Positions 4,356 through 53,490 of a stretch of DNA of 64,000 nucleotides are shown one piece after another. The stretch comes from Spirogloea muscicola (Eukaryota; Streptophyta; Zygnematophyceae; Spirogloeales; Spirogloeaceae), in contig WELB01000106.1 in assembly GCA_009602725.1 (NCBI GenBank), positions 307,044-371,043 of the forward strand, given 5' to 3'. The number at the start of each line of letters is the position of its first letter. The first letter of the stretch is position 1. The notes beneath the pieces are model-generated. The model ran no database searches, was not told where the DNA came from, and worked only from the letters and a program-made list of their open reading frames with translations. The translations under genes were made by a program, and so were the position numbers.

Positions 4356-4379
4356 GTCTGACTGATAGGACGAGAGAGT

Positions 4380-4510
4380 AAGAGAGAATGACACTTCCAG
4401 TAGGAGGGCGATGGCTTGGCCAGCCCAGAAAGAATATTTTAAACAGATTTGCATGAGTCAGATAAGCTTTGAAGCACACAGCGACTCAAGTGGCCATTGG
4501 GTGCACTGAG
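4380..4510 (-). repeat. R1 interspersed repeat, copy 1
   Basis: On the minus strand this reads TTCTTTCTGGGCTGGCC and is followed by CCATCGCCCTCCTACTGG, matching the copies at 21325-21475, 17870-18045 and 53415-53490. It also shares the flank GGCCATTTGAGTCGCTGTG with the copy near 21430. It lies just upstream of the FKBP start. Confidence 0.75.
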
Positions 4511-6514
4511 TAAGAGAGTGGTACAAAGCACGGAGTGCAAAATTGGCATCTTGCAGGCCATCTCATCAGATCGTTTCTCAAACTAACTCAGTTTGCTTCT
4601 CGAGCTCCATCTCCAGCTCATCAATAAACGAGGAATGACATACCTACTTACAGGAGACTAACAGTGATTTCAGTGCTTGATCAATTACATAATCAAATGG
4701 TTGCACAACACAGGCAAATGGATAAAGGACACTGAGGAAACCTGGACGGAAGATGGACCTTCTGGGCGCTGGCTTATGCTGCTTATTAAGTCCGGCTGGC
4801 GGCTAAACTAGGGGTTACTGAGCGGCCATCCTTAGCAATCCTTGTTCACCTGCGTGCTATCCACTTTCCATCTTTTCTGGGATTTGTCATTCTTTTGTGG
4901 GCGGGCTGGCCCCTCGCAGCCCTCCCCTTCTATTATTGAAGAGCTACTTTGTAATTTCTGCAAACGCTTGACTTCAGGCTTGTTGGGTCTACTTTACTGG
5001 TCCCACACCATGAAGTTGCCCTCTCGGCTCGACATTCACTATACTGTGCACACCAGATATCTTCTGTGTAAATGCATGACTGTAATGCATGCATCTTCTA
5101 ATCCAAAGCTGTATTTGCCGAAGAATGCATGGCAAGGATCCTTACTGGCTCCTGTACACAACACTTGTGAGCAGGTTCCCCTTGATTTGTTGGAGCACAT
5201 TGCTGAAACTGATGTTGAGGTGTGCTGACTGATATAAGGCTGTCTACTGTGTACAAAATCTTATTTGTATCACTGACTTCATTGCACTCCCTATATCTAA
5301 GTAGGTATTCCCATGTTTTAACTAAATCGCTTACAACATGCACACACTGCAACAACCTCCGAGCATAGCAGAAACAAAATACCTGAAAAAAGGCCTGTAG
5401 TGACAAACTCTGCTTCTGTTCTGTTCCAGTGATGAAATGTGCGATGTTCTAAAGCTGGTGAGCAGATAGCAGAGGGTCTTTGAAAATCAGCCTACTGTTA
5501 GAAATGTGACTTAGTTGACGCATTATCAATGTGATGTCAAGAAGCTGAGGTTAACAGCAGAGGCTGTTATGACCTTCTGATGAGATGCTGGCTTGGTTGT
5601 TGCAATCAATGTCCTCTGCTAGTGCCACCTGGTTACAGTACGTCTGTGGCAGGTTATCAAGGCTAGCCAACCACATCTCTGCCCCTTGAAAGGCAGTTCC
5701 AGTATCTCTTGTGAAAGGGAGTCATGACATTGTTGAATCAGCAAGTGCCAGTACGAAGTAGAGGCACTGGGATGTGCTTGTGCCCAAATGCATCACTTTG
5801 CACATATACTCCACAATAAATTGATGATCGCATGCCCTGGGTACGACCGGAGCTTCTACATTCGTCATACAAGCTACGCCAGCAAAGACTCTCCCATGGC
5901 AATGACAGCAACCTTCGATGGTTTAACGATAAGAGGACTTACTAAAAGAATGAATTGAATACAACAAAACCCGCAAGACAAGATGCACCTAGGACTGGAA
6001 CCACCAATGATACCTAGAATTGTCCCACCAAGAATGTGCTTGGTGACCTCGTCAACAACACTACTTCAACAATCTGCAAAAGCAGCAAACAGGAGCTACT
6101 CTGCTTGATAGAGAGATGGCCTTATTCTACAACTGGTTCCTTCTCCTTGGGAGAGCCACATTCTTTCTCCTTGGGTTGGAGAACTGAGCACCAAGGTTGT
6201 CGTGCAAAATCACAATACAAGGATGTGTCCCTTCTCCAACTTGCATACGAGGGGTTGCCAGCTGCACACCTTCCAGACCAACACCATCCATATACTTGTC
6301 CACAGCAGTTTCGCGGCTTCTGGGCGATTCAGGTGAAGGTGAAGCTCACATGCCAATGATTGCCGTCACCAAAGCCGGGAGGATCAAAAGCCAAAGTGGC
6401 AATGAACGCCCCGTCATATGTCAACCAGGTTCTTGCCTCCCTGACAACCATCGCACCATCCAGCAAAATCGCAAAAGCCGTACGACGGCCGGCTATGGGG
6501 TTCCGTGAAAATGA
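4511..6514. other. Intergenic region between FKBP and PERK genes
   Basis: About 2 kb of lower-GC sequence lies between the FKBP 5' end and the PERK 3' end. Apart from R1 copy 2 at 4875-4965, I see no coding exon with family support. The open frames here, such as 4842-5228, overlap the repeat or have no recognisable content. The PERK 3' untranslated region probably occupies the last few hundred bases. Confidence 0.5.
4875..4965 (+). repeat. R1 interspersed repeat, copy 2 (diverged)
   Basis: It reads CATTCTTTTGTGGGCGGGCT, then CCTCGCAGCCCTCCCC, then ATTGAAGAGCTACTTT. This is the R1 order of words (CATTCTTC..GGGCTGGCC, CAGCCCTCGCCC, GGAAGAGC) with changes. Confidence 0.55.
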
Positions 6515-9500
6515 CTACCTGGCCCTTCCCCAGCCATCACTTGCACGACGCTGTGCAGACCCTGACCCTGGTGGAGGGGGTGGGGGCCTTGCCACAAATT
6601 CCTCGGTGTCCACAGCGCCTGATGCAGCGCCAAGAAAGCGCCTCTGGCTGTCGCCATAAGGCCGTGAACCGGGGCTCTCCGTGTGGCCTGAGCCGGGGCT
6701 GTATTGCTGCCCGCCTGAGCTCCGCTGGCCAAAGGAAGAGCTCCTTGCGTCTGCTTGGAGAGAAGGCTGGCCTAGCGAAACCGCACTGCTTGGCGGCAAC
6801 GAGCCATGGCTGTTTTGCTGGCCAGAGAGATCCATGTGAGTTGCAGTGTCAAGACTGCTGACAGGCACCTGCGGCTATCAAGGACACAAATCCTCGATCA
6901 GACAAAAGTCCCACGATACTTACAAAGGAGCACAGCTGCTTGCACGGGTGCTGATGATGGCAAGCGAGAGAAAGATCCCTGATTATGCAACTTAGGCAGC
7001 CTAGGCAGAGTGACATACTGATGTTTCACGTGCGTCGTACTGCTGCCGCATCTCGGCACTGTACTGAGCACTGTCGTATGCGTCATTGCCGCCAAAAGGG
7101 ACATTATCATATGCTGTGCTGTAGCCCGGCCGGTTGGGGCCCTTGCCCATCTCGTTGATGTCTTGCTCCCCTTGCAGCAATCTCACCACCTGACCAAGCA
7201 AAATAGCCATCAGCTTGGCCCACGGTTAACGCAAGAGCATGCACTACTATCCAGACTGGGGCAACTGAGCAGGACTTAACAAGAAATGCAATTGTTATCA
7301 GACTGTCGACCCAATCAATTGTCTTGTGAAAGTGACAGGCCAAATGGACACAAGCCTTGGCCAGCGCTCAAAGCCATAGCATCAGACACTTAGGGGACTT
7401 CTGAGCAGATACTGCTGTATCTGCTCAGAAAGTGCAACGCGTGAAAGCTGCTGGGCTGGCTACCTGGCTCATGCGGGGCCGAATAGCTGCGGAATAACGC
7501 ACGCACTGTGCTGCTGTGGAGATCATTCGGTCCATCTCCTCATCATTATACAGGCCTTGCAGTTGCGGATCAACCAAACGCTCTACATCATCTCTTGCCA
7601 GGAATGGCCTTGCCTGAAAGGACACAGAAGGCAAACTTCTATCAATCTGGATGTGGTCAAACAAGTCAGCAAGAGCTCATTGCACATGATCCGATCGTGC
7701 CAGATCATCTTGTCTGCAGAGTCAAGATGTCACTCATTTCCGCCAATTAAGTTGCAGGCTCAAGTAGGTCCACCACTGAAAGACATAATAGATATTGGCC
7801 ATCTACATTAGCTAGCAACTTTAGTCAGCAAACAACGGGTGATAACATACCCATTCAACCAGGCTTTCTTGCCCAGGAGCACCATTAGGGTCCACAGGCC
7901 GCTTGCCCGTGATGAGTTCAAGAAGAACCACTCCAAAGGAATACACGTCTGACTTATCTGTGAGCTTGCCACTCATGGCATACTCTGGGGCAAGATACCT
8001 GTCATATCGGCCATGGCAAAGTGTATTACAGTCCTTTGTTAGGTCAAAGTGTTGTGAGCTCTTTGGAATAAAGAACTATAACAATGTGGGGAGGAACATT
8101 TGCCAAGGACTCTTACCCAAAGGTGCCCATTACTCTGGTGCTGACATGGGAGAAAGTGTCCTCCGCCAGTTTGGCGAGGCCAAAGTCAGCTACCTGAAGG
8201 ACATGGTGTAAGGCTTTCAGTCCAGCAGGTGTAGCTCCTTCATACGATGTAAGAAGATGTCCTGGACTAGAAAGTGCAGAAGGGCTGCTCCACCAAGCAG
8301 ACCAGAATAACATGATCTTTAAAGGTCAGAAAAAGAAAATCTAACCTGAGCTTCATCCGTCTTGTCTAAAAGAATATTGGACGACTTGATATCTCTGTGT
8401 ATGATGCGCGGGTGGCCTGTCAGGACAATAACAAGTAAAGAAAGCTGATTAGCCAGACCTTTAGTTTTGCAAACTTCTCCCGGGTGAGATTTTGCAACAG
8501 CACAGACATGAAGACTATTATCAGAGCAGCCCCACCACATGAAATGGATGTCCAGGTTCAGATGCATACAAACAAAGGGCACAACGACAACGAAAGAGAC
8601 TGACAGTCTTCATGCAGATATGCCAAGCCTTTGGCAGCCCCAACAGCTGCCTTCATTCGCATGTCCCAGCTCATTGGTCCCTGTAAGCGACCTGCGTACA
8701 TTTACATGTCAAACCTCTGAGCTTAGGCCAAGCCAGCCTACGCTACGATGTAACAGGCTAACCTCTCTGAGACGAACCCTGCGTGGTAAATGACAAGGAG
8801 ATATAGAACATGACTTGCTAATAGCTCAGTAAGATATGATTTGACCGCCTGACATGAGGGTTTTAAGAGATGCACCATGCAGATTGTACTCAATCGTGCC
8901 ATTTGGTACGTAGTCATACACAAGGAGGCGCTGTTCATTGGCAATGCAGTATCCAAGTAATGTGACCAGATGTCTGTGGTGCACCCTGCTGATGATCTCA
9001 ACCTCTGCTCGAAATTCACGCTCACCCTGGCCTCCACCTAAGGTCAGCTGCTTCACAGCTATAAGCTTGCCATCCTGCCAAATGCCAGCGTATGTTTAGT
9101 AGCTAGACAGGCACAGCTGGAGCTCATGACAGGTCAGATTTGTCAACAACAAACAGTGACCTGTGTTGAATATATTGCGGGTACTGCAAAGAATCGACGA
9201 GGTGTCACAGAAACAGTCTTGTCTTATGAATCATGTCCGACTTGAGCGGACAGCTTGCATCAGTCGTGAAGCTTGTGTCAGGCAACAGACAAGCAAACAT
9301 CTGCTCAACTATGCGAGACGATGCATAGTCCTGGGAGTGCCCACGTAGATGAGAAAGTAGAAGCTCACTTTCAGCACGCCTTTGTAGACACGGCCAAAGC
9401 CACCTTGTCCGAGCAGATTCTCCTCTGCAAATCCATTGGTTGCCTCCTCAAGCTCCTCGTAACTGAAGTACGATCTGGAGTTGCCGAGGCTAGAGCCCCT

Positions 9501-10935
9501 CGACCCGGCAGATGGAGCAGGTGGCACCCTGGTGCGTGGAGAACCGGTGCCCGTCCCTGTCACGGGCGGGGACACCTTCTTGCTGGAAGGCATAGCAGCA
9601 TAATAGCTGGCAGGTGAGCGCGGGCTGTCTGCGGCGTTGCTTGCAGTGAATGCTGCAATTGCCAACCAGAAGCAGGTGATGATGGATAAGTGCCAAATCA
9701 TGGGCTGCAACTAAGCTAGCCAAATTGACCATGATAACAGCATTGGCTCATGCAAAAATCTCAATGTCTGCCTTGATAAGCATGGCATCTATCTTATACG
9801 GGCTACTTGTGACACCTCCAATCAAGATGAGAGGTTCACAAACTGACTGGTTGGCAAGCACGTGAAGTAAAGGCAATGGTTGTCTGCTGTATCAGTATTT
9901 ATCACCTCCTGCCCCCTTGAGTGGAGAAGTCAATTTCTGCTGGCCATCCTTGGGCCCCTTCTTCTTCCTCTTGAAGCAGCAGAGCAGGAGCACCACTAGC
10001 AGTACAAGCCCTGGCACAAGAGGACGTTTGAGAATTACTGCTAGAGCATGCAATTACTGCTGAGACTTGGAGCCAGGCTCCGTCTAGTGATGCATCAGCA
10101 GCTGATAGAGTATCACCACAGAGTATTAGGTAATCTATAGCAGCTGCTTCACCAGCCCATCGCAATCTGGCGGTATTCTGTTGCTTGTCAGCATACCTGC
10201 AAGCGCACCACCGGCAGCAATGCCAATGACAGCTCCAGTGCCAATACCACCTCCCCCAGACTTACTCACACCCCCACCGCTTGAGCTCCCAGGTGGTGGA
10301 GGGTACAGGACAGACGGGGGGGGAGGAGATGCCACGAAGGGGGGAGATGCAATAGCCCCAGGCGGAGGTGGACGGCTAGCAGCAGTTGGTGGGGGAGGAG
10401 AGGTTGTGACGCCAGGCGGCGGGGGAGGGCTTGACAGGAATCCGTCAGAGACTGGTGGGGGGCTGGGCGTCCTTGTCCCAGGAGGCGGTAGGGAGGGCGG
10501 CGCTTTTGTAGAAGGTGGAGGCGGCGTGGGGGCTTGTGCAAGAGGGGGAGATGGCAGGACTACGGGAGGGGTTCCAGCTGAGGGAGCCACGGCCGGCGGA
10601 GGAGCGCCAGCCGGGGCCTCCGGAGGAGGTGGCGGCGAAGCAGCCTGAGCAGGAGCAGGCGCCGCGGCCAGCGGCGGCGGCGGACTCGGGGCCAGTGCCA
10701 CGGGCGGCGGAGGACTGGGCAGAGCTGCCGGTGGTGGCGTGGAATCCGTTGGCGGTGAGGGGGCCGGCGCCTGGGCAAGTGGCGGGGAAGCCGGAGGGGG
10801 GAAAGTGTCGCTTGCCGGTGGCGATGGCGCCGGCTGAGCGCCCCCGCCACCGACGGAGGGTGCAACGGCCGACAAGGTCGGGGGCAGCGCCACAGTGGGC
10901 CCTTGTGCCAGCATCCTGGTGGTGCGGCGGCCCAT
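6515..10935 (-). CDS. PERK-like receptor kinase (proline-rich extensin-like), about 794 residues
   Basis: Eleven exons join in phase: 10935-10197, 10010-9906, 9652-9369, 9074-8876, 8691-8605, 8416-8346, 8193-8117, 7998-7851, 7613-7464, 7189-7019 and 6868-6515. Residues 1-230 are Pro/Ser/Ala-rich with repeated SPPPP-like blocks, a cell-wall-facing ectodomain. A membrane segment ([14 protein letters not shown] joined to [12 protein letters not shown]) precedes a basic KRKKK stop-transfer. The kinase domain has [11 protein letters not shown], the VKQ lysine, [11 protein letters not shown] (an RD kinase), VADFGLAKL and [11 protein letters not shown], so all catalytic residues are present. A Ser/Gly/Gln-rich tail follows. 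Land-plant PERKs act as plasma-membrane cell-wall sensors. The N-terminus MGRRTTRML shows no signal peptide, as in many PERKs. The exon 3 acceptor could be 9652 or about 9629, both in frame. Confidence 0.93.
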
Positions 10936-12279
10936 CCTGGCAACTGCCTGGTCGGCCTGACGGTGCTGTTGACGACCACAGCAGGCCCCCAGACCACCGC
11001 CGCCAAGCCTACCGGCGCCTCCAAGCCTGATGGAACTTCTTCAGAGGAAAAAGTAATATCAATCAATTACGTCTCTTGATACTTTTCATCTCCTGTGACT
11101 GTTCATCGACGCAGCGCTCCTGTGCTGTGACGGTTGTCTCTCGACTGCAGTGTCCGCAAGATCCTCAAAGGCAGGCTCGGTTTGCAGAGATGGAAGCGGC
11201 CGGCCACAGGCGGATGAGATCAAAGGTCCGGTCTTGCGGCAGACGCCAGCCGCCACCAGCGCTGAGACGTCCCTCCTGGCAAGTCGCTGCGGCGGCGGCT
11301 TGAAGCCGGCGAGGAGAGGGAGCAGCGAGATATGGCCGCCTTTGCGTCCGTCACCGCACCGCTTCACACCTTCCGCCTCCCCCTCCCGCCTCCGCCGCCG
11401 CCGCCGCGCCGCAGAGCCCGCGGCCGCCGCGTGCTTCAGCGGCAGCGACGGCGGCGGCGGCGGCGACGGCGGCGGCGGTGCGTGTAACGAAGCCCTTTTG
11501 ACAAGAGCGGGTTGGGGGAGGCGGGACCCGGGCCCTGGCCAGCTGGTGGCCCCACACTTGGCGACGCGCCACATTTGGCGGGTGCTTGGCTCGGCGGGCC
11601 GCCGGCCCGGCAAGCCGGAGTCGCCGCGGAATCTGGAGGCGCCGCCAGATCTGGCGGCGCCGCCGATGGACACTCCCGCTGCCGCCTGGCAGTTGCCGCC
11701 TTCCCCGGCAGCTCTGGGCCAGCTCGGTCAGCCTGCCGCGTTACCGATTGAGAGGTGGCATGCCTTGATGAAACCACCCGCAGCACGGCCCAAGAGCGGC
11801 CTCCGGGCGACTAAAATGGCCCCGCATTAAACGACCAATCGAGCATTCGAAGACGGATCCGATTTGTCCTCGCCCCCTCGAGCTCGGCCAGGCGGGGGTG
11901 ACCGTTGACGGGGCTGACCGGCGAGCGTGCCATGCGACGCATTGCGACCCGCGCGACGCGCTCGGCGACAAGATGAAACGCCACGTAAGCTCGGACAGCT
12001 TGGCTCGGCGGGTGCGGCCCCCCGCTGCGCGCCGGCCATGTGGGTCAGCAAGGGTCCTACTCCTACGGTCGTTGCGACGACCCTCCTCGGATTGGGGGTT
12101 GCCGTTCGCCCGTCGCAACCTCTCGTCGTCTTCGTTCAGATTGAAGCAAGCGCGGCCAGATCAACCGGGAGAGGCCAGCCCGAAGGAGTGGACAAGGTCT
12201 GAAGGAGCCGGAGTGCTAAGGACTGAGACAGCAGCAAGCGGACTCTCAGTAACCTCTGGTCAGTCAGATTACTTTCCAA
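10936..12279. other. GC-rich 5' flank of the PERK gene
   Basis: About 11130-11830 is strongly GC-rich with CGG/CCG runs, giving long but low-complexity open frames on both strands. I take it as a CpG-rich promoter and 5' untranslated region rather than a gene. It holds TTTGGCGGG at 11574-11582, which matches the E2F consensus core, and a perfect 24-base palindrome at 11638-11661. Confidence 0.5.
11638..11661. repeat. Perfect 24-base palindrome
   Basis: The half-site GGCGCCGCCAGA is followed directly by its exact reverse complement, with AGATCT at the centre. It sits in the GC-rich region about 700 bases upstream of the PERK start codon. Confidence 0.9.
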
Positions 12280-12395
12280 GGAAGAAGCTCGTCCAAGCTA
12301 AGGTATTGGCTGTGGAAGAAGGGGCTACGGCTGTGAATGAAAATGTGAATGGCCATCTCAGAATGAACAAGGTCCAAAGGGCCGAATGATGCCAA
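12280..12395 (-). repeat. R1 interspersed repeat, copy 3
   Basis: On the minus strand it reads GGCCCTTTGGACCTTGTTCA, then TTCTGAGATGGCCATTCACA and CAGCCGTAGCCCCTTCTTCC. Order and spacing match the other R1 copies; the GGGCTGGCC core is mutated here. Confidence 0.65.
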
Positions 12396-12439
12396 AAGTA
12401 CACAGCTATGCAAGGGACTACAGCGAATGGGAGCTTAGT

Positions 12440-12570
12440 AACCCCTAGTCAGCAGCCGTAACGACTCTTGGATACTGAGCGAGTCAGCTTAGCAAAGCAC
12501 TTATAGTGCATCTGTCAATGTGTTTGCCTTTGTACTGAGTGATGAAGGGCCTGAGTGGTCAAGTACACTC
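12440..12570 (+). repeat. R2 repeat: 3' tail of LINE-like element
   Basis: It carries ACTGAGCGAGTCAGCTTAGC and CATCTGTCAATGTGTTTGCC, followed by TTTGTACTGAGTGATGAAGG. These are the tail words that follow the retroelement stop codon at 15116-15118 and recur at 18066, 18255-18345 and 22035. Confidence 0.7.
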
Positions 12571-12634
12571 TCCATTACGTCGCGCCCCTCCTGCTTTTCC
12601 CGACTTGCAGCTACATATTGGAGGAAATACTGAC

Positions 12635-12815
12635 CAGTTTTGTTGGCTGGCTTGTCACTGCCCTCGTCCACTTTTGGACGAGCTGCTTACTTTCACTGAG
12701 CAGGCACATTTGTGGTCTCCACGCAATCCTGGCTCCTTAGGACCTTGCCTGTGGGCTGGCTTCTTACAGCCCTCGCCCCCTTTGGAAGAGCTGCTGCTTC
12801 TTCTTGGCCAAGGCT
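12635..12815 (+). repeat. Two tandem R1 units
   Basis: Unit one (about 12635-12705) reads TTGTTGGCTGGCTTGTCACT, then GCCCTCGTCC and TTGGACGAGCTGCTT. Unit two (about 12738-12815) reads CTGTGGGCTGGCTTCTTACA, then GCCCTCGCCCCCTTTGGAAG. The units are about 100 bases apart in the same orientation. Confidence 0.65.
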
Positions 12816-13221
12816 TCGGCTGGCAGAAGTTCCTCTCTCCATCGGCAATTCTAGGAACCAGAGGTTGCTGATTGTCTATGCGCAGAGCCGCAGACAATCA
12901 TTCTCCTTTTTGCTTCCGATCTGCTTTGCGTTGTCGGGTTGGACGAGAAACAGAATTGAACATCCATTCTTCTTTTGCAAATGCACAGTAACTCTTAGTG
13001 TACTCATGCTCACGAGCCTGCTGTCTTGGACTCTTGCTAAGCTGATAAGAGGGCTTCAATGTTACAGGATAGCTTGCAAATGAAGATCTCTTCATTGTTG
13101 TGCACAAGGTAGCTGCGTTTGCTCTGGTGGGCAGTAGAGCTCACTGCTTTCTTAAGAACAGGTTTCTCTTGGCAAGGGCCTGGGTATAGTCTGGGTGCTG
13201 TTTGTCCGCTGTTCCTGGAGA

Positions 13222-13828
13222 TTAAACAAATAGGGCCTGGTGCTTGCCATTGGCAAGGATACACAGCTGGTTGTAGGATGCCATATCTGCAACATACATG
13301 GAGGTCGATGGCTATCAGTACCAGGACATAGGACGTCCTTGTTTGCAAAGAATGCAGCCTTTTGGACAAGACGTCTGTGAAGCAGCTAGCAGGCTCACCG
13401 AAGGAATCACCAAAGCTGGTCACAGCCTCCTCGCGGAGCACGTTGTCGCCCTCCACAAGGCCAATGATCTCAGCATAGGAGCTCGGATAAGCGAGGCCCG
13501 ACGACGAGCGGATGGTGATCTGGGCGCCGTCCGGGGCCTGACCCTGCACCGTGCCGTCTCCTGGCTGCCTGAGCACCTGCAATAGCCAGCCATCTCGTAG
13601 GCGGTCAGCAGGCTGTTCGGTGCTCAAGTCAGCCGGCACCAGGTGCAGCGGCAGCAGATTGGGAGATGCTACGCAAAAGCAAGCGGCGCCACGACGATGG
13701 TGACAGCCAGAGAAGGCAGGCTGCAAGGTGGGGCCTGTTGTCACCTTGATAACAGTGCGCACGCGCCGCCCAGCATGGCGCTGCATCAGGTCAGCGTTCA
13801 CCATTGGCGCCGGCGCCGACATGTCCAT
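13222..13828 (-). CDS. RPA3: Replication protein A 14-kDa subunit (RPA3/RPA14), 108 residues
   Basis: Three exons join in phase: 13828-13745, 13576-13399 and 13286-13222 (TAA stop). The protein is 108 residues, the normal size for the family. It reads MVNADLMQRHAGRRVRTVIK, then GDGTVQGQAPDGAQITIR, then YAEIIGLVEGDNVLREEAVT, and FGDSFDMASYNQLCILANGK after the last splice. This is the single OB fold of Rfa3, ending with the conserved FG(D/N)xFDxxxYN segment. RPA14 is the smallest subunit of the trimer that coats single-stranded DNA in replication and repair. The start is set at 13828; an in-frame ATG at 13930 would add an Ala-rich extension that the family lacks. Confidence 0.93.
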
Positions 13829-13986
13829 GGCGTCCGCAGCGTACGACTGTTCAGCCGCTATGGGCGCAGCTGCGGGTGCTGCCAAGGCGGGCCGCCCCAG
13901 GCAGCCTGGACTCTGGCGGCAGCTTGGCACGAGCTGCGTGAGCCTGAAGGTCGGATGGGTCCCTCAAGAGCGCCTCTTCGGCAAGG

Positions 13987-14030
13987 GCCTAAGCCGGCCG
14001 CCTGCGCAGCCTAAGCCGGCCGCCTGCGCA
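13987..14030. repeat. Perfect tandem duplication of 22 bases
   Basis: The unit GCCTAAGCCGGCCGCCTGCG plus CA occurs twice without gap (13987-14008 and 14009-14030). It lies upstream of RPA14 in an Ala/Arg-coding GC-rich stretch (13830-14213) that I cannot assign to a gene. Confidence 0.9.
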
Positions 14031-14254
14031 CGGTTCCACGCCCTCAACGCCGCCAGCTCCGCCGCCGCCGCTGCCGCCACCAGCTCCGTTGCCGAGCCTG
14101 CCGACTGGAGCGTCGGCGAGGGAGCGGGGCCTCGACGTCGAAGCTTTTGAGCGGCTCCGGGTGGCGCGAAAGGGAGCCATTGCCTGCCTCTGGAAAAGGC
14201 GTTTCTTAGAGGACTTCTAGACGGAAAGAAGAAAGTGCTCGTCCACAGAGAAGA

Positions 14255-14310
14255 GGAGCTGGCAAAGCCAGCCCTAAAAAGCATGGACAATGTCCAAAAG
14301 CCAAAGGCCG
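14255..14310 (-). repeat. R1 interspersed repeat, short copy
   Basis: On the minus strand it reads GGCCTTTGGCTTTTGGACAT, then GTCCATGC, then TTAGGGCTGGCTTTGCCAGC. This matches the GGCCCTTT..GGAC..TGTCCAT..GGGCTGGCC order of R1, for example the copy at 52890-52965. Confidence 0.5.
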
Positions 14311-14554
14311 GATGGCGCAAAAAGCAGGATACCATTCATTCTGCAAGAAGGGAGAGCCAGAGCGGAATCGCTACAATAGAAGAAGTGGCTCTGCCAATGG
14401 GGGCAACACGCAAGCGCAAGGGCAAGGGCAAGAGCTGTAAGAAGCAAGCCCAAAAGTAGAGGCAAGCAGATCCACAGGTGTGAACCACCGGTAGGCTCAC
14501 GGTAACTATGGGGTAGCACGTCGGGAGGGGCTTCCCCCCTTTGCTCTGGCGGGT

Positions 14555-15195
14555 TTGATGCGCGACGCCGGGTACCGTGCGGTCGTGGAAGTGAACAACA
14601 TCATGCCTATCACCACGGATGCCCAGGGACGTCATCATCGCCGCACACTTGACATTGTGGGCGTGCAACCTGGTGGAGGACCAAGGGCTTTGGTCGATAT
14701 TGTGGTTACGGAGGCCTATAAAGGTCCAGCATCGACACACATCGCTGGCCACGCAGTGGGCAGTGCTGAACAAAGAAAGTTGCAGCACTACTCCGATTAC
14801 CCCCGATGTGATCAGCTCTTGCCAGCGGCAATCGACATCTTTGGCTGCTTAGGTCCTCGTTTCCTTACTCTCCTTCAAAACATAGCCAATCTAGGTTACA
14901 CACGACATGCAGATGTGTTCCCGGCTGAGATGGGCTTGCCAGCTGCTTATCTGTCATTGTTGCGACGACGAGTTTCGTTCTGTTTGCAGCGTGCTCAGGC
15001 TAATGCTTTGCACCAGAAAGCTGGGCGAGCTCTAGTTGGTGGCAGAAGGGCTTCGTATCTGCCATCTAGTATCCAGGCATTGGTTAGCGACCTTCACGTT
15101 TTGACCCGTATTTACTGAGCGGGTCAATCTACTGTAGCTTATGTAGGTCTTAAGATGTGCTTGCCTTTGTACTTGGCCATTTGGCCTTCGTTTGT
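14555..15195 (+). mobile_element. LINE-like retroelement fragment: C-terminal ORF end plus 3' tail
   Basis: A 187-residue open frame (14555-15118) has no introns. It contains LDIVGVQPGG, VDIVVTEAYKG, EQRKLQHYSD and LLPAAIDIFGCLGPRFLTLL. The spacing of acidic residues and K followed by an (F/L)xPxxxxxFGxxGP block resembles the PD-(D/E)XK-type nuclease region at the C-terminus of non-LTR retroelement polyproteins. No reverse transcriptase is present, so the copy is 5'-truncated. The stop is followed by the R2 tail (TGTGCTTGCCTTTGTACTTG). A second copy of the C-terminus lies at 18255-18545 on the other strand. The class call is from pattern memory. Confidence 0.55.
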
Positions 15196-15224
15196 TTCAA
15201 ATACACGATATTCCTTTCACTGAT

Positions 15225-15415
15225 ATTCCTTTCACAGGAAGCGCTGTTCTATTGGAAGAGCTTTGTTTGGGCCTTCCTCGTAGATACTTGTCCAGTCCTT
15301 CGAGTTGGCCCACCTCAGGCCGTGGAAGAGCACAGAACAGCTGATCCAGATTACGGCAAGGGCTGTGATAGGCCAGCCCAAGAAGAATGAACACGGTCCC
15401 AAGGGCACGTACTCT
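15225..15415 (-). repeat. R1 interspersed repeat, long copy
   Basis: On the minus strand it reads GTTCATTCTTCTTGGGCTGG, then CCTATCACAGCCCTTGCCGT, with a second R1-like end (GCTCTTCCAATAGAACAGCG) near 15250. It lies about 160 bases upstream of the CaM methyltransferase start. Just before it, TGATATTCCTTTCAC or nearly so is duplicated in tandem (15207-15236). Confidence 0.65.
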
Positions 15416-15576
15416 TCATATATCCACCGCTTGAGTGTGAACGGAATACCAGCTCCCATTGCATCTAAGTAGCAGACTGCCAGCGGCAACGAGAGTAGAG
15501 TGCGGTGTGGCCTCGAGTTGGAGGCAGTGGCTGTAGCTGTGGCGGTGGCGGTGGCTCTGATCACAGACGGCGTGGT

Positions 15577-17428
15577 ATGAAGGCAGCTCGGCCACCGTCG
15601 CCGGATGCGACGGCCCCCACTGCTGGGCGCCGGCGGTGGGCCCTGCTAGCGGAGGCGGTGCGACACCGGTCGTCGGAGAATGGCGCCACCGCAGTGGATG
15701 GACTCTCGCGGCTGCCGCCCAGAAAAGCTGGCGGCGGCTTCGGCCTCATTCCCTGGCGGCCACTGGCAGAAGCTGCCGGTGTCGAGGCGGAGGAGCTGGT
15801 GGACGTAGAGTACCTGCTGCCAGGGGTTGACCGTTTGCTGCGCCTACGGTGAAGACCCACAGTCGAGCTGCCGCTGCCGTGGCAACCCTGGCTTTGGTCT
15901 GAGCCTTGGCGCTGGCCTTGCTAGCTTGATGGTGGAGGCTGTCGTCTCTGCTGTCACTGCAAATTTCTGTTTCAAAGTCCTTATAAATGTAACTGGATAT
16001 GTACCGAGAGCACAGGATTATGAGATCAAGCAAGTCTTACACATTCTCTGGCAGGCAGCGGCGGCCGGGCAGCGGCAGTGCCACGCTCTTGGGCGACCTT
16101 GCAGCCGCCAATGCACACAGCATTGATGCCACTGGTCGCATTGGTGACTCCAGCTTGCGCATCCCGAGCCCTTCTATTGCCCTGCTGAGGCTACGGTCAG
16201 CTGCTGCTGTGTACTCGGCTGGCCGCCACTGTTGAACCTCAACTTGATCTACCAATGCAGGCCTGTGGCCGGCTGAAGAGGCGCTGGCATACGTCTGCGC
16301 CAAGCATCCCACTGTGTTCGCGTGAGTTTGTCATGCTTAATCATGCCACCACGGCGCTAAAGAGCTTAGGTCACCTACCTGCATGCTCTCACCAGGCAGC
16401 GGCTGTGGCTCACAGCCGCCGCCCTGCTGTCGCCACAGCGGCAAGAGGGTGCTTGAGCTTGGCGCAGGATATGGCCTAGCTGGCATGGCTATAGCAGCCT
16501 GCTCCTCTGCTGCAGAAGTTGTGCTTACCGATGGCAACCCTGCCGTTGTTGAAGGTAAGCTGCCACTTGTCGCAGCTGTCGCTGCTACCATATCCAGCCT
16601 AGACTTCTTACTGTAGGTTTTCAAGCGCTGCCTCTTCGCAGCACAGCTATGATTCAAGCCCAATGATCAACCCCAATGTGTTGGCATTGCTGCTACTCGC
16701 TGCCGTTTGTCTAAGCTGTGCCATGTTGGACAGCCGTCGACCAGCACTGGAGCACAATGTGCGGGCAAATAAGCATGTATTCAACAGCACGGCCATAGTT
16801 GCACGGCTGCTGGACTGGCGGCAGCAGCCTGAGGCAGGCCACGCGGCAGGTGGAGGAGCTTGCAGCCGTGACGCTGCAGGCTACGATGTCATCCTGGCCG
16901 CTGACTGGTATGGCCAGAGATGCGGCATGAGCGCCAACTTGATGGTTCTCACTCTTGCCTTGGCAGGCTTCTGAATTGTCTACATAGGTGGCGCTTGCAT
17001 CCACAACTGAGGAAGCCAGTTTCACGTGAATGCGCAGTACTTTCTTCCGCGAGTTCCATGCCGATCTCGCTAGGTGCATTGGCGGGCTCCTGCGGCGGCC
17101 CGAGGGTGGTGTGAGGAGCCGCGATGAGGAGGTGGCCGGCAAGGATCCGTGGCCACCGGGCAATGGCGGCACCAATAGAGGAGGCGGCTTGGCACTGCTG
17201 GCCGCGCCCTCTCGGGGCGGGTCGTTGGCGGCGTTTGCGGTGGTGGGCGAAGGCCAAGGCTTGTCAGCGGCTGTCATTGAGCAGTACGATGACGCTCTCT
17301 GGGCGGCTCACGAGGAGCTGACTGCAGCCGCTCGCACTGCCAGCGGCAGCGGCGGCGCCACTCGATGGCCGCACTATGACCGCGATCAGTGCTATCCACT
17401 CCTCCTCTGCCTACGCCACGCCGGTTGA
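15577..17428 (+). CDS. CAMKMT: Calmodulin-lysine N-methyltransferase (CaM KMT), about 363 residues
   Basis: Six exons join in phase: 15577-15848, 16055-16143, 16261-16321, 16439-16554, 16745-16907 and 17038-17428. Joined blocks are LPPRKAGGGFGLIPW near the N-terminus, SIDATGRIGLWPAEEALAYV, GKRVLELGAGYGLAGMAIA (SAM-binding motif I), EVVLTDGNPAVVEALEHNVR, YDVILAADCTFFREFHADLA, and the terminal VIEQYDDALWAAHEEL with WPHYDRDQCYPLLLCL. These match CaM KMT from N- to C-terminus, including the DxTGxxxLWPxEE block and the C-terminal YDxDxCYPLL. The enzyme trimethylates Lys115 of calmodulin. No targeting signal is seen. The start is the first ATG of an open GC-rich exon. Confidence 0.9.
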
Positions 17429-17869
17429 CAGTGCGGCCAGGCGAGCTCCTGATGCTCGTCCTTGCGTCTCCGTGGTCACTATGATGTTCGATCGATGCCA
17501 GCCGACTTCAAATATGACAAGCACACACCAGAGCTCCGTCAACAGCAGCAGCTATCGGCCAGTAAGCCACGCACTTTGGGCCGCAAGGGCAGCATCCACC
17601 TTGCCACTCCACCTGTCGACAAAAGGTCGGGACCAGCGAGCAGAACATGCTGCACTACCAGGAGGATGGGCGTCCACCACTCATGAGCCCGTGGACGCTT
17701 CAGGGGATCCCTTGTTGGTTGTTGGAAGTTGGAAGCTGATGGAGATGGGACGCTTCCGCCCTGAGTGAAGTGTATAGACGGCTCAACATTGGTCTTCAGG
17801 GTCGCCTTCAACATACTCACTGGAGGCAATCTATCACTTGAAGGACGACTGCCAGCAGAGTAAAGAGGG
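17429..17869. other. Short intergenic region
   Basis: This follows the CaM methyltransferase stop. Open frames on both strands (for example 17376-17768) show no family features. I see nothing further. Confidence 0.5.
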
Positions 17870-18045
17870 GAATACGAAAACTGTCCCAATAGAGAGAGAC
17901 TTTCTTCCGGCGATGGGGGCGATTATGGTGATTGGCCAGCCCAGGAAACGAATGAACAAAGCTCGAAGGGGCCAGAAAAGTGTCAAAGCACACGGCGACG
18001 CAATCTGGCCACTGGGTGTTCAATGCCCCCAGTTGAGCAGCTGCA
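17870..18045 (-). repeat. R1 interspersed repeat, long copy
   Basis: On the minus strand it reads AGCTTTGTTCATTCGTTTCC, then TGGGCTGGCCAATCACCATA and ATCGCCCCCATC. Its upstream part (ACACCCAGTGGCCAGATTGC, then GTCGCCGTGTGCTTTGACAC) also aligns with the copies at 4380-4510 and 21325-21475, so the family consensus is at least about 150 bases. Confidence 0.75.
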
Positions 18046-18065
18046 GGCCCGGTAACAGCCAAACG

Positions 18066-18180
18066 TAGTGTAGTCATCTAAGAGCAGCAGGTGATGTACA
18101 TCTGTCAATGTGCTTGCCTTTGTACTTGGCCACCCAGGCCCTCCATCACTTAACACACACTCCATTCCCATCCGGGGGTG
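18066..18180 (+). repeat. R2 repeat: LINE-like 3' tail, plus orientation
   Basis: It reads GATGTACATCTGTCAATGTG, CTTGCCTTTGTACTTGGCCA and CCCAGGCCCTCCATCACTTA, close to the consensus of the five R2 copies. Its partner at 18255-18545 is in the opposite orientation, tail to tail, about 75 bases away. Confidence 0.8.
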
Positions 18181-18254
18181 TTGGGAACTGGCACTGGATG
18201 CGCCTGCCCGACGGGAAGGGGGCCAGCCGCTGTTCTGAAGCTAGCAAGAAATTG

Positions 18255-18545
18255 AGAGTGTTAAGAGATGGAGGGCCTGTGCGGCCAAGTACAAAGGCAA
18301 GCACGTTGACAAATGTACGTCTGCTAAGCTGACCCGCTCAGTAACCACGAGTCAGCACATAGAGGTCGCTAACTGATGCCCGAATATCGGACGGCAATCG
18401 ACAAGCTCTTGAGTCCACCAGCTACGGCTCGACCAGCTTTCTGATGCAACGCATGGCTGAGCTCGCTGCAGACAAGCTAACACTCGGCGTTGCAAGAATG
18501 ACAAGTAGGCTGCCGGCATGCCCATCTGAGCTGGAAGCATATCCT
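18255..18545 (-). mobile_element. Second LINE-like retroelement fragment, 5'-truncated
   Basis: On the minus strand the coding end matches the element at 14555-15195: MGMPAAYLSFLQRRVLACLQ here against MGLPAAYLSLLRRRVSFCLQ there. An R2 tail follows (CTGAGCGGGTCAGCTTAGC and CGTGCTTGCCTTTGTACTTG). It keeps about 60 codons of the ORF end and is frame-disrupted. At its truncated 5' side, about 18541-18566, ATATCCTCACGTC occurs twice in tandem, possibly a trace of insertion. Confidence 0.65.
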
Positions 18546-18665
18546 CACGTCATATCCTCACGTCATATAGCACGAGGTTGCAGCGAATGCCAGAAGCTGC
18601 GGTAAGGGCGACGGGGTGAGCGGCGCAGTAGGAACCAAGGCACAGGCGGCGCCGGTGGGGTCCGA

Positions 18666-20624
18666 GCTACGACGGCGGCGGCGGCAGCAGCGGCATGCGG
18701 CGAGGAGGCCCTGCCGTCGTTCGCGGCGCTGGTCGAGCGCTTCGGCCTCTTCGGCTGCGGCGAATGCAGCGGGCCGGGGGTTAGCGCCGCTGCCGGCCGC
18801 CGCCCCCCCGCTGCCGCTCGGCTGACCGCCGCCGGCTTCTACGGTGAGGCGAGGCCTTGACTGCTGCCGCTCAGTTGGGTTCTTCCCGTGCAGGTTGGCA
18901 TCGAAGCCAGTGGCGAAGTGAGCTGCGCCTGCGGAGCCTGCCGCCGCTGGCAGGCCTTCCTGCGCGGCCACGGCGGTCGGCCTCAGTACGAGGTGCTCAC
19001 GGCCGAGCACGTCGCTGGCCTCGCCAATTACCTCCTGTGAGACTCAATCACTATCAGCGAGCCCACTGCTGCGCTCCAGCGGCCAGGCATGGCCACTGAG
19101 GCCCATGCGCTGATAGGTGTGGGCTGCGCCTGGCTGCGGGCCTTGACCTGCTGCCTCGTGCCGGTAATGGCGGCGGCTGCACCAGGGATCGGGCAATCGT
19201 GTACAGAATCCCATGTCTACATGTGCTGGAGGTACACTGCTTCCCCAGTCTGTCGTAGCCTTGCCGTGTCATCACCAGCACCGCATGACCTGCGTGGCTG
19301 CGGCTGGCTGTGACTGCACTCCGCACTTACCGAAGCTGAGCGACTGATGTTCGACGGTGCCACTGGCGACCAGGTTGGCGCTGGCGACGGCCGCCTGACC
19401 TACCACCTCCGCGCAGCCCTGGCTGCCCTGCCCGCGAGGGTGGGCTTCTCTTCCTAGCTGAAACCCCTAGTCCTGATTACTTCTAGACCCTAAGGCTAAG
19501 CCTCAGTCCCCTAAGCTTGTCAATGTCAGAGCGATCGCCTAGACTATGGCCGAGTATACCTCAGCTCACCCACGTGGCTCACTATTGCTCATGCGTAGAA
19601 ACTTTGATTAGTAGCCCGAGCTTATGTTGCTGACTTGAGGGTCAGAGATTGCGATATGAGCCTTGGACGTGACAGACATAGTCCCGTACGTGTGCAGGGT
19701 GGGCCAGGCGTAAAGGTAACGGCCACAGATAGTGGCACTCGGGGCCTGGCTTCTGGCAGCCAGATAATGTGGCCGGCGGCGGCGCTCGTGCGCACCATAG
19801 ACGCCGTGGCTGCAATTGCTGAGGAGCAGCCGCACCTTGTGCTTGCCTGCTGGATGGTACTCCTGACTTCATATCCTCAGGCCTACAGTCCCCAGCGTAA
19901 ATCTTGGCCCCGAGTACAAGGTTTTCTTGCATCTTGTAGGAGCAGCGTCCAGGTTGCGCTCGCTTCCGCTTGCCAAGTCTGATTGCTTCGCGTGGTGGTG
20001 GCCGCCGGTGCCTTGTAGCCAATGGACGTGGACTGGACTGCGGCGATGCGGGCGTGCAACTCGGTACAGGAATATGTGCTCGTTGGTGAAACGGTGAGCC
20101 AGGCTCTTGAACACACCCACATTGTTTGTGAGTCTACTTTTCTGGTATCGCCTATGTATGCGTGCAGGTTGAGCTCTGATCCGAGATGTTGCATCTCAAT
20201 CCTGAACAACACTATCAGCTATTTCTGACTTTGCCTGTACCAGGACAACGGCATCTGCGGTCACCCTTGGCGGACCTGGGGGTTCCGTGGCTGTGGTGAC
20301 AGCAGCGACAGTGAAGTGAGTGGCAGCACAAGCAGCAGCAACTATAGCAACGGCGACGACGACCAGGTGTGCATCGAGGGCGGCAATGACGGTAAGCCAG
20401 TTATAGCTTCTGCAGGAGAACAGGGGCAGAGAGGCCGGCCGGCGAAGAGGCTACGAGTAAACCAGGAGGCGAGCGCCGCTCCGCATGTACAGGATGGATG
20501 GGAGCGCGTCGACCTGCTTGAGCTGAGCCGGCACCAGGTCTGCCGCACGGATGACCGGTGGTCAATGTGCCAGCACTCGCGCACTGTGTCCTTCCGCCGC
20601 TATCCTGCAATTGCTGCTCCATAG
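18666..20624 (+). CDS. Unidentified multi-exon protein with Cys clusters and a possible Rossmann-like core
   Basis: I do not recognise this gene. Five 3' exons join cleanly in phase: about 19341-19439, 19764-19856, 20019-20093, 20244-20391 and 20416-20624 (TAG stop). They give LTYHLRAALAALPAR, IMWPAAALVRTIDAVAAIAE, EQPHLVLACWMPMDVDWTAA, VQEYVLVGETDNGICGHPWR and an acidic Ser-rich stretch, ending WERVDLLELSRHQ and RWSMCQHSRTVSFRRYP. Alternating hydrophobic strands and helices suggest a Rossmann-like domain (inference). Upstream, exon-like sequence at about 18666-18848 (FAALVERFGLFGCGECSG) and about 18910-19040 (GEVSCACGACRRWQAFLRGH) carries CxxC and CxCxxC clusters, recalling SAND or Tify-like zinc modules. 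The joins among these first exons, and the start codon, are unresolved. Confidence 0.55.
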
Positions 20625-21324: not shown

Positions 21325-21475
21325 GGAAGACTGTTCCAGTAGAGGGCGATGGCGGTGATCGGCCAGCCCAGAGAGAGGAACGAAGACCGCAGGGGCCAGG
21401 AAAAGCGTGAAGGCTCACAGCGACTCAAATGGCCATTGGGTGCTCATCATTTCCCGTTGAGCAGCTGCAGGACTG
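21325..21475 (-). repeat. R1 interspersed repeat, best-preserved copy
   Basis: On the minus strand it reads GGCCATTTGAGTCGCTGTGA, GCCTTCACGCTTTTCCTGGC, CTCTCTGGGCTGGCCGATCA and CCGCCATCGCCCTCTACTGG, ending AACAGTCTTCC. It lies about 260 bases upstream of the NAP1 start. This copy and those at 17870 and 53415 define the family. Confidence 0.8.
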
Positions 21476-21732
21476 CTGTGACTTGTGACGGCCGGACCTG
21501 GCAACTGGATGTGGCAGGCGCGGCCACGCGGAAGTGGCACTCAGAAGCTGCAGCTGGCAGTGCTTGCGGGGCAGCCATGACATGACCTGGCCCGAGAGCC
21601 GCCACTCCGGCGGCAGAGACACCGTAAGGCTGGCGCGCCGGTGACGAGCCGGCAGCGGCGACGGCGGCCGGCATGGGAGCGCCTCTTTCACGCCGTCGTG
21701 CTCCAGCGAAGACGGGCTGAAGGAGCTGAGGG

Positions 21733-24700
21733 ATGACGGCCAAGGTGGAGGCACTGGCGGTGCTGCGCGCCGTCGCGCAGGGCCTGGCGGCAAAGCTCTA
21801 CCGCCTGCGCCGCATCATGGACGCCGGCGGCGGCGGCGGCGAGCAGCAGCCGCGGGTGCCGCCGCTGGCCGTCCAGTGCGGCCTGCTGCCGGACGCGCCG
21901 CGCCTGCTGCACCACCTCGCGCGCGCCTTCCCCGACCACCCCCGCGACTGCCACCCCGAGAAGGTCAGCAGCCGCCATGGCCGCCGCTGTGGCTAGCTAG
22001 CCACTGCTGTCGCCACCATTGAAGGTCAAGGTGAATGGAATGTGTGTTGAGCGATGGAGGGCCTGAGTGGCCAAGTACAAAGGCAAGCACATTGACAGAT
22101 GTACGCCAATGACGATTGAGATTAGTGATCAAGAATGCAGAGAAGGTAAGATGGTGCTTGGTCAGATCTGAGATGTTTCCATCGTACATGGTCTTTGCTT
22201 AGAGTCTCTTAGGCTTATCTCATCTAAAGTCGTTCCTAGGAAAGAGAATCAAGCTGGTCCTTGCAAACGGCTTGATATACTATCTCTCTTGGACTCTCTG
22301 AGCACAATATCACAGATAGGGTTAGGGTCTGAGATGCAGGGGTTTGGGTATCTGTTATTCATACGGACCATTCGGGCCTATGCATTGCCACTGCCGCCGG
22401 CGCCCGTCTGCCCGGGGGCTCGTTAGAACTGCATAGTCTTTGCGCCACCAAGTTGTGTCGCAGCGTCGCCAAGTGAACGCTGCAGTAGGGCTGCATTATA
22501 GGTCAAAGCCGGTTGCCAGAAGGTGAGCAGCTGGGACTGGCAGCGCAAGCTTGGTTCATTGAAGCGATTGATGCTACGGTGGCAATGGCAGGTCGACCGA
22601 GATGCGCTGGACCACCTTCAGGAGGCGGCGCAGGAGTACTACGACCTGCTGGAGCCCTGGTATCTGGTATGCACTTGCAGCATTGTCGCGCCCAGCAGTG
22701 CCAGAGCCACCCAGAGCCCTGATCCACGCTCTGTCGCCGTCCAACATTGTAGAATATCGTGTATTGCCCACTTGTCAAGTGCGCTCATGTCATGTACCAT
22801 CTTCTTGGCCAAACCTAAATGTCAAGCTCCTGCAATATCACTGCCACTTCGTTTGAGCTGTGCTGGTGGGACGCACCTTGTGCGAGTTTTTCCCACCTTG
22901 AAGCAGCTCAGAGTGTGCGCCATCCAGGTCCTGTGGGAGGCAATGAGGCTGCGGGAGCAGGCCGTGCGGCTCCTGTCGGCGCTTAGCAGTGGCATCACGT
23001 CAGCCTCGGTGAGTTCCCCTGGAGGTTGTGGAAAGCCACCCCTCTATGCTCTTGTGGCCTGGACCAATGTCTGCGTCACAGGCACGACAGCTGCACCTGT
23101 TGCCCTGAATGTCTTGGAAGAGGACCAATCAGGTCTTAAATTTGGTTAAGTATTTGCGTAGACCCTAGAATTAAGGGTTCAGAGGCGCATGCAGGATGCT
23201 GGCTGGCCCAGAGTAGCAGCACCTCCTCGTCTCGCTGCGAGCTGCACAGCTGTCTGAGCGAGAGGCAACTCATCCTCAATCTTGGTCAGTGCAGGAGGCC
23301 TTATCGTCCCAGCCTTTCTGCACATGAGCAGCCTTTCCGAGTCGTAGTCTGCTAGGAGCCAGCTATGACAGGTCCACTCAGTAGATCCACCCTCAGTCAG
23401 TGGGGCACATTGTGCCATTGGAAGTGCAGTGATGTTGCCAAACACATGATGGAGACTTCCACAGACAACGTGGTTGGCGCTTTGATAGCACAAAGGACGT
23501 CCGTTCCTCGCAATTGCACATGCTCAGTGCTAGATGGAGTCGTCTTATTCTTGGTCGGCCACTGAGAGGACTGTAGACAGGCAGCGGGTACATAGCACAA
23601 TGTGACAAGGACAAGCTAACGCTCACACAAGCTTGCAGACAGCCGCTAAGCCTCACCTCCGTGCGGTGTCGCAGTTTGATGCCAACCCGCTCTTCATGCG
23701 TGCCTGCATGGGCCTCCTCTGTGACTTCGCACGCACCGTTGTCCTTGTTGCCAAGGTAGGCTCCACACCACCTGCTTGGCATGGATGCGCTCGTCCTTGC
23801 AGTCAGCGCGGAGCTACATAGTTGTGGGCCGGCTTAGGGGTTAGGCTGCGTCAGGGCTTATTACCAGGTTTCAAACACCAATCGATTACTCAAGGATGGA
23901 GCGAAGCTCCTTGGCAAGTCCAGGATCAATCAATTTGTCAAGTGAAGCGCTGTTCATGCTGAAGTCACTCATTGGACGTCCTGAACTGCTGCCCCAGGTT
24001 GGCGCGCCAATGCTGCTGCAGGTCTATGCACTGCTGAAAGTATACGTGACTGGCGGGAATGACCCCGCTGACTATGTCAAGTATTCAACGCACTGGACTA
24101 AAATTCTGATATGCTGCGTAATATATGCTGTGTCCAATACACCTACCCGCCGCAATAATGGCAACCTAGCCTCAGTTGTTTTACCACGCCCTCACCTGCA
24201 GGGTCGTGAGCTTCGCCCAAGTCTGCAGTGCGCCATTCCGGACATTGCAGCTGGACCTGGAGAGTAGCGGGGCTCTCATCAGCGAGGTTCGTAAGTGGAT
24301 GGGCAATATCTATGAAGTCAAAGCTGGCTCCAGTTTCTTGCAGAGTGGCCAGACTGTCTTCTGCAGATTGAACTCCAGCATGGGAGGGTTGTTAGTCCAA
24401 TGGCATGATGAATCTTGCCATTCTACATTCTGGGGCAGCCGCGTACCATCGTGGGCTGCCATTGTAGCAGGATGACCCTGATGCTGAACACTGGAGCCCC
24501 ACATTCCCAAACCCTCAGTATACGTGACCCCTAGACACGAATACAATTGTCATGCTCGCACTCGCTCGTATACCTGCAGGCACTGAGGTCGATTGTGCCA
24601 GTTATTAACGCCACCGCCGAGATGGCGGCTTTCAAGGACAGCAGCACGTTGTTGGCCCTAGTGACTGATGACCCAGCAACCACACTGGTCAGACAACACA

Positions 24701-36962: not shown

Positions 36963-37075
<113 letters not shown>

Positions 37076-37076
37076 A

Positions 37077-37582: not shown

Positions 37583-37765
37583 CTGGTGGCTCGCTTGCCG
37601 CGGCTTTGGCAAACAAGAGCGCCAGCACTGATGTATGCATGCCAGCCACCCTCCCTCCTTTCTCTCTTTCCCTGCCTCTTCTGGCAGCACCACATCAACT
37701 TGATGCCACTGGAAAACAAGTGTTGTGGACATTGCCCTTGTATAATACAGGCAGACCGCCCATTG

Positions 37766-51658: not shown

Positions 51659-52889
51659 AATTGCAAGCAGAGAAAGAGAGCTAGGGAGACAAGAAGACTG
51701 TCAGGCGGACCACTCAGACAATACCTACAAAACTATTGCTTGCAAAGAGCGTTGTGTGCCTCTCGGCGTAGGTAGTCGCCTGCCTAAAAAGCTGCCCTGG
51801 CCAAGCTCAATTTAGCTGGTCATGGTGCAGGAACCTCTGACGAACATGCCACAGTGCCTGTTATAGATTACCCGCGTCTTGTGGGCGTGTTGGTGTTTTG
51901 CAACACCTCAGGCTTACTAGTTGTATTGGGACTTGAATATTCTGCCCAATAGCTCCGATTTGTACAGAAGGGGCTAAAGAGTATGCCAGTCCACCATGAC
52001 CGTGATCGTGGCTTCAACTTCACAAAGTACAGTCTCCATTTAGACACAATTGTTATGGTTGGTCAAGGCAGCGAAAGCCTCTGGAAATACCACAGTAATA
52101 TCAATTTCCAGAAATGCGAGAAGTTGCTGATTTTGTACACCATCTCGAGAAACTATAAGCGGTATTTGACAAGCTCTTGGTAAATGGGAGGACGTGTCCT
52201 GGGAGCTTGACAAAACAACTGCCTGCGACAGCTCAACTTCCTGGCGCCTGATGACCACAACGCCTCTGACTTTATTTTAGGCGATGCTCACATTCTCAGT
52301 TTCTCACTTTTTCACCGCTTTGCTTGCCACTTTTACGATGAGGTGGCTGGGGCCTAGCGGTAGAGGGGCTGACGGGGCCAGGGTGCAGGGGCTGCTGCTG
52401 AGATTGGATCTCTTCAAGGACTGGCGTTCTGACGAGCAGCAGCACCTGCCGCAGCTGCGCAGAGCAACGTCAGCAAAAGCCCACATCGCCTTTTGTCATC
52501 GCGTGGGAACCACCGCAGCAGCAGTCCTCGCTGTCAACGGCGTGTCTCTGCGCTTGCAGGTCTTGTGAATCGTGATTTGTGCGCATGCGGGTTAAGGCCG
52601 CAACTTCAGGCCCCTCTGCTTGCTGCTTGCACCACTGAGTAGTCGGACCTGATATGCCAACATGTTTATTGGTCACATTCTTTGTTCTGCAGCTGTGGAC
52701 CACTGTCTTTCCACTAAGTATCTCGACAGTAAGTGCGATGCTGAAGGACTGAAAATGCATTGTGCTCCTGTTGCTGGGTGCTGCAAGATGCGGCGCAAGG
52801 GTCGGCTCGTGACTCAGCCTCAGTCACATATGTACTACGGAAGGAGCGGTGGAGCTGTCAACTGAGGCTCCCACAGTAAGAATAGATAA

Positions 52890-52965
52890 AAGCTCGTTGA
52901 TATCAAGGCGATGGCTGTGAGGCCAGCCCATTAGAAATGGACAAGGTCCGAAAGGGCCGGAAGGT
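52890..52965 (-). repeat. R1 interspersed repeat, short copy
   Basis: On the minus strand it reads TTCCGGCCCTTTCGGACCTT, GTCCATTTCTAATGGGCTGG, then CCTCACAGCCATCGCCTTGA. Confidence 0.7.
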
Positions 52966-53241
52966 ACAAAACTTAGATTTACTCTCCAAGACTTCTGCTT
53001 ATGAACGCACGTAATCTGTAGTCAACAAGTGCAGATCCGATCAAAAGATGGAGTAGCTCTGACTGAACCAGGAGGCAGCAGCTTATGTGCGGCATGCACG
53101 CAAGTGCACGTAAGTGTACGCAAATGCCAAAGGAACTCTGCAGAGGGAATGGCAAGGCGCTTCCTGTACGCCTGAGCAAGCGACCCGACGGCGTAGAAAC
53201 TGGGCTGCTCGCTCTATTGCCCTTGACGGCGGGTAAGATCA

Positions 53242-53260
53242 GCATGCATGCATGCATGCA
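53242..53260. repeat. Alternating (GCAT)n run
   Basis: Nineteen bases of uninterrupted GCAT repeat, a purine-pyrimidine alternating self-complementary tract. Confidence 0.9.
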
Positions 53261-53414
53261 CCAAGAGGTTGTCGATCTTCACAGCTTGATCTCCAGGCTT
53301 CACCGGACCGGCTTGCCCTCTGAACGCAAGCCGCCATCCTGTGAAAGTGTGGGCTGAGTCGAGTCGACTTCGTCGACCTTCCCAAAACATTCGCTTTGAC
53401 GCCTAATTGACGTC

Positions 53415-53490
53415 GTGGTCAGTCTTTTTCCTGGGCTGGCCGGTCACAGCATTGCCCTCTACTGGAAGCGTCTTCCTTTTCTAAACCCCG
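53415..53490 (+). repeat. R1 interspersed repeat in the PDCD2 5' flank
   Basis: It reads CAGTCTTTTTCCTGGGCTGG, then CCGGTCACAGCATTGCCCTC, then TACTGGAAGCGTCTTCC. It ends about 45 bases before the PDCD2 start codon. Confidence 0.8.

Follow-up and report, generated by a model that had tools for sequence, protein, structure and literature searches.

What is the short repeat, here called R1, that recurs along a 64,000-nucleotide stretch of the Spirogloea muscicola genome (the window; C106:307044-371043), often close to genes? We conclude, with a probability of about 0.95, that R1 is the 3' end of an autonomous family of long interspersed nuclear elements (LINEs) with a single open reading frame (ORF) carrying a reverse transcriptase (RT) and a C-terminal restriction-like endonuclease (RLE) of R2 type. 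R1 would be mostly 3' untranslated region (UTR), with the end of the ORF included in longer copies. This conclusion draws on the constant 3' ends and scattered 5' ends of the copies, the ORF found upstream, target-site duplications (TSDs), filled and empty homeologous sites, and the R2-like fold of the endonuclease.

R1 is a dispersed and abundant repeat

The window was searched with an R1 profile to which neither the window itself nor its two homeologous regions had contributed any locus. The search revealed 13 R1 matches and 2 matches to a second, younger LINE, and the same profile gave no match in 10 dinucleotide-shuffled windows or in the reversed window. An earlier note, made from the letters alone, had listed an interspersed repeat at 11 sites, 10 of which were recovered by this independent profile. 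The listed site at 15225 had no profile match; an R1 copy lies nearby at 15336-15405 and, together with those at 12168-12263 and 14378-14456, adds three copies to that list. Nine of the 13 copies have their LINE sense on the minus strand, in keeping with the reported occurrence in either orientation.

Are there copies elsewhere? In the 153-Mb assembly (471 contigs) they were profuse, in line with the earlier note's reading as an interspersed repeat: three queries returned 2,723, 866, and 1,261 first-look candidates, the best 40 of each being scored, and the copies examined were dispersed over many contigs rather than gathered at one single target. As a rough measure of density, 5 matches were found in ∼40.0 kb of sequence from six unselected 10-kb stretches (which include 19,999 N), compared to 13 in the window.

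Copies share a 3' end and differ at the 5' end

Copy ends were analyzed with a longer profile of 667 positions in 53 sequences (293,948 bases), many of them chosen for matching R1. The 3' end was constant, with 238 of 316 matches stopping within the last 25 profile positions, whereas the 5' ends of those 238 copies scattered from position 5 to 622. This scatter was present in each of five subfamilies (7 to 57 copies; 98 copies unassigned). The median R1 copy was 140 nt long, and 109 of the 238 copies lay entirely 3' of the stop codon; longer copies ran into a coding region related to the younger-LINE domain at window positions 14552-15118. Such a pattern, fixed at one end and smeared at the other, is what 5'-truncated LINE insertions characteristically leave.

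An R2-like ORF lies upstream of R1

A genome-wide protein search gave 5,930 candidates, of which 150 were scored and 23 of these examined (three as larger loci, 20 through their 3' parts). A gap-free locus, L062, contains one 1558-residue frame, with the R1 3' end located after its stop codon. This frame encodes a reverse transcriptase (Pfam RVT_1, E 1.8e-17), a CCHC knuckle read by eye, and a weak C2H2-finger match below the Pfam cut-off. Its C-terminal endonuclease domain has the R2-type restriction-like fold, the closest solved relative by sequence being an R2 protein (E 1.4e-5). The N-terminal part of the frame (L062:768-3640, minus strand) is made of repeated proline-rich units, and the start codon is uncertain. 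A full-length relative from a public assembly, P0023 (1068 aa), is 42% identical to the L062 ORF across 97% of the searched region.

Of the 23 loci, 18 have a frame that closes, mostly with ..LLSRGY or ..LLSRNY, and the R1 terminus follows 118-153 nt on; the remaining 5 break off or are interrupted ahead of that terminus. The R1 word GGGGTTACTGAG straddles the LINE stop codon. The earlier proposal that R1 could be a decayed coding remnant holds in part: longer copies do contain the last LINE codons plus the 3' UTR, but the frame quoted for it, LGWPITAIALYW, crosses the 3' UTR hairpin and is a product of chance.

The 3' UTRs of 17 of these 18 loci had a nearest neighbor 88-100% identical, and the best 40 genome matches of window copy 21325 were 77-83% identical. 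The intact R2-like ORF and the near-identical 3' UTRs suggest recent activity, and to judge from these comparisons the R1 LINE lineage appears to be an old one in which the L062 subfamily has been active recently.

Insertion marks at R1 copies

The window copy at 4387-4507 is flanked by a perfect 11-bp TSD, GAGTAAGAGAG, at 4376-4386 and 4508-4518. Among 236 copies, exact flank repeats of at least 9 bp were found at 19 (re-paired control mean 3.4, maximum 9) and of at least 10 bp at 13 (control mean 2.0, maximum 6).

Positions 7399-26372 of the window are collinear with C304 (L045, L046) and C35 (L047, L048), giving three homeologous regions with 81-87% identity in aligned blocks of >700 bp. 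This collinearity fits the genome triplication of Spirogloea muscicola. A site filled in C35 (5287-5428) is empty in both homeologs and shows a 10-bp duplication; another, filled in C304 (3367-3448), is empty in both others and is bounded by the near-repeat CCTCCTCGGA / CCGCCTCGGA. Copies 12281, 12641, 12711, 17913, and 21325 are common to all three regions and are hence older than the split of those regions. The three collinear regions also provide a ready tool for dating insertions.

A possible hairpin in the 3' UTR

The conserved words in the earlier note correspond to the predicted hairpin and stem arms of the LINE 3' UTR. In the outer stem, CATTCTT can pair with GGAAGAG (or TTCATT with AATGGGC), and in the inner hairpin GGGCTGGC can pair with CAGCC or GCCA..GCCC. 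A pyrimidine tail follows: positions 2-10 after GGGCGAGC were 0.86-1.00 pyrimidine in 44 copies (background 0.50). Folding z scores stood out for subfamily B (-3.3) and the L062 UTR (-2.8), less so for A (-1.7), and were unremarkable for C, A2, and D (-0.4 to -0.7).

ZfL2 elements are not known to be RLE elements. In the available part of PMC4176376, experiments demonstrate that the LINE protein of ZfL2 elements binds the 3' stem-loop tail, and the R1 LINE resembles the stringent-type ZfL2 LINEs of that study in that its UTR carries a conserved predicted hairpin close to the 3' end. By analogy with this binding we infer that the R1 hairpin may be the template signal for its own LINE protein. 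The protein would recognize the stem-loop, the endonuclease would nick the DNA, and reverse transcription, primed at the nick, would mostly halt early and leave dead tails of about 140 nt. The intergenic location of R1 tails would then reflect where insertions survive and no function.

Weighing the alternatives

Several observations weigh against reading R1 as a LINE tail inserted in this way. Exact flank repeats are seen in few copies only; at 11 bp the observed count of 5 just reaches the control maximum of 5, and at 12 bp the count of 2 falls below the maximum. An automatic comparison for filled and empty sites returned 22 rows; most were ambiguous, and two proved clean on inspection. Covariation in the 3' stem was weak among nine representatives (2 of 15 pairs, with an unfavorable covariation term), RNAalifold found no consensus fold in 214 old copies, and recognition of the stem-loop by the LINE protein is argued from analogy.

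Could R1 instead be a tRNA-derived short interspersed nuclear element (SINE), with internal polymerase III boxes and mobilized by a LINE with the same tail? This was the initial reading and was rejected when extension showed that the fixed end belongs to the opposite strand and is a 3' end, with an ORF upstream. A median of only 140 nt and a high copy number would suit a SINE, and box-like words are present; however, these lie on the strand opposite the LINE sense strand, the wrong one for such boxes. In addition, a fixed 5' end is absent from every subfamily, long copies go on into the LINE ORF, and in the window ARAGORN detected no tRNA and Rfam (gathering scores) no match; a SINE is very improbable for the family as a whole. 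Shortness, abundance, and both orientations are also features of a miniature inverted-repeat transposable element (MITE) or other short DNA transposon. A constant end opposite a smeared one leaves no room for a pair of terminal inverted repeats, and R1 is continuous with an ORF for reverse transcriptase and endonuclease, so that we consider this reading less credible still.

A further possibility is that some copies, LINE tails by origin, now act in promoters or enhancers close to gene starts. The earlier note placed several there, in the 5' flanks of FKBP, RPA14, CaM KMT, NAP1, and PDCD2; RPA14 is backed by Pfam Rep_fac-A_3 (window 13040-13963, minus strand) and is the exception among 20 ORFs near R1 copies, the other 19 being without a match in a Pfam scan, which speaks neither for nor against FKBP, CaM KMT, NAP1, and PDCD2. 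Five window copies are, moreover, retained in all three homeologs. Yet whole homeologous blocks are 81-87% alike, so shared copies need no selection, and R1 copies are seen decaying and broken up by insertions that came later; we see only a slim chance of such co-option. R1 is mostly 3' UTR and an ordinary genomic parasite, neither SINE, MITE, nor promoter module. The earlier statement that it resembles none of these is true as it stands, but the element whose 3' end makes up R1 is of a known kind, an RLE LINE. A would-be promoter module is struck off, and a very common noncoding repeat is traced to LINE debris; for a close algal relative of land plants, this makes genes and repeats easier to annotate.

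Relation to known LINEs

The RLE LINE clades named in the available part of PMC4640811 are CRE, R2, R4, NeSL, and HERO, with the order finger-RT-finger-RLE. The R1 LINE is alike in its single ORF, RT, CCHC knuckle, and C-terminal endonuclease; it is R2-like by endonuclease fold and is a further R2-like element of an already known kind. It differs from R2 and other RLE LINEs in that its copies are dispersed, not confined to ribosomal DNA (rDNA) or another single target, and in its pyrimidine-rich 3' tail and very short typical copies. Dualen/RandI LINEs have green algae as hosts. This class, mentioned in the part of PMC4640811 available, resembles the R1 LINE in comprising RLE-bearing LINEs of green plants; Dualen also has an APE endonuclease, whereas Pfam reported none in the L062 ORF. 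Our literature search, with subscription journals outside its scope, found nothing on LINEs of Spirogloea (PMC11096116, in its available part, is on other matters).

A younger LINE and the arrangement of neighboring insertions

The younger LINE (window 14552-15208) gave 3,396 first-look candidates, and its best 40 genome matches were 95-98% identical over about 660 bases, compared to the 77-83% of R1 copy 21325. Both LINEs are abundant and 5'-truncated, and their endonuclease domains are related (36% identity over 190 columns), but their 3' UTRs differ. The protein record SM000063S19975 (s63:66832-67464) carries the LINE domain and matches C63:66898-67559. A 64-nt inverted repeat at 18093-18156 and 18258-18321 (91% complementary) consists of two opposed younger-LINE 3' ends.

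How are neighboring insertions arranged? Within 10 bp, R1-R1 neighbors comprised 46 same-strand, 11 head-to-head, and 11 tail-to-tail pairs, and R1/younger-LINE neighbors 5, 9, and 3, respectively, several of the latter being one event seen in three homeologs; head-to-head pairs showed no general excess among neighbors at this distance. The 5' ends of R1 and the younger LINE coincide or nearly so at window positions 12457 and 18051-18083 and at L030 1500, L045 5188 and 8932, and L048 4050. Such pairs had been considered a SINE joined to a LINE tail and proved to be two LINE 5' ends head to head; perhaps they arose by two-sided priming at one break.

Neighbors no more than 40 bp apart, counted where the 5' copy extends to its own 3' terminus, were same-strand in 55 cases and opposite-strand in 31 (binomial P = 0.006). 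This mostly head-to-tail arrangement hints, as a weaker inference, that the R1 tail draws later insertions. We tentatively raise the rather doubtful idea of a streptophyte-algal RLE LINE lineage whose own pyrimidine-tailed 3' UTR has become a preferred landing site, dead tails drawing new copies into head-to-tail intergenic arrays. Self-tail targeting, if true, would offer a simple case for studying the site choice of R2-like elements beyond rDNA.

Features of the window

Table 1. LINE-derived features in the window (strand, LINE sense)
Feature	Position	Strand	Basis and remarks
R1 copy, 5'-truncated LINE 3' end	4387..4507	-	profile match 4386-4504; 11-bp TSD both sides
R1 copy	4799..4950	+	profile match
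R1 copy, beyond earlier list	12168..12263	-	profile match
R1 copy with LINE ORF end (..RLLTRGY-stop on minus)	12281..12459	-	profile; all three homeologs
R1 copy, short	12641..12689	+	profile; all three homeologs
R1 copy	12711..12803	+	profile; all three homeologs; further copy inserted within it in C35
R1 copy	14227..14325	-	profile match
R1 copy, weak (E 7e-5), beyond earlier list	14378..14456	-	profile match
Younger-LINE endonuclease-domain open frame	14552..15118	+	its 3' end at about 15208
R1 copy near listed site 15225	15336..15405	-	profile match
R1 copy	17913..18051	-	profile; all three homeologs
Younger-LINE 3' end	18083..18163	+	sequence comparison
Younger-LINE 3' part	18254..18552	-	sequence comparison
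R1 copy	21325..21471	-	profile; all three homeologs
Younger-LINE 3' end	22040..22108	-	sequence comparison
R1 copy, window's longest, extends into the profile's ORF part	52888..53235	-	profile match
R1 copy, short	53418..53479	+	profile match

Apart from these features, degenerate telomere-like CCCTAAA/CCCTCAA runs (repeat family D2) lie inside the contig at window positions 344-457, 718-748, and 54188-54710.
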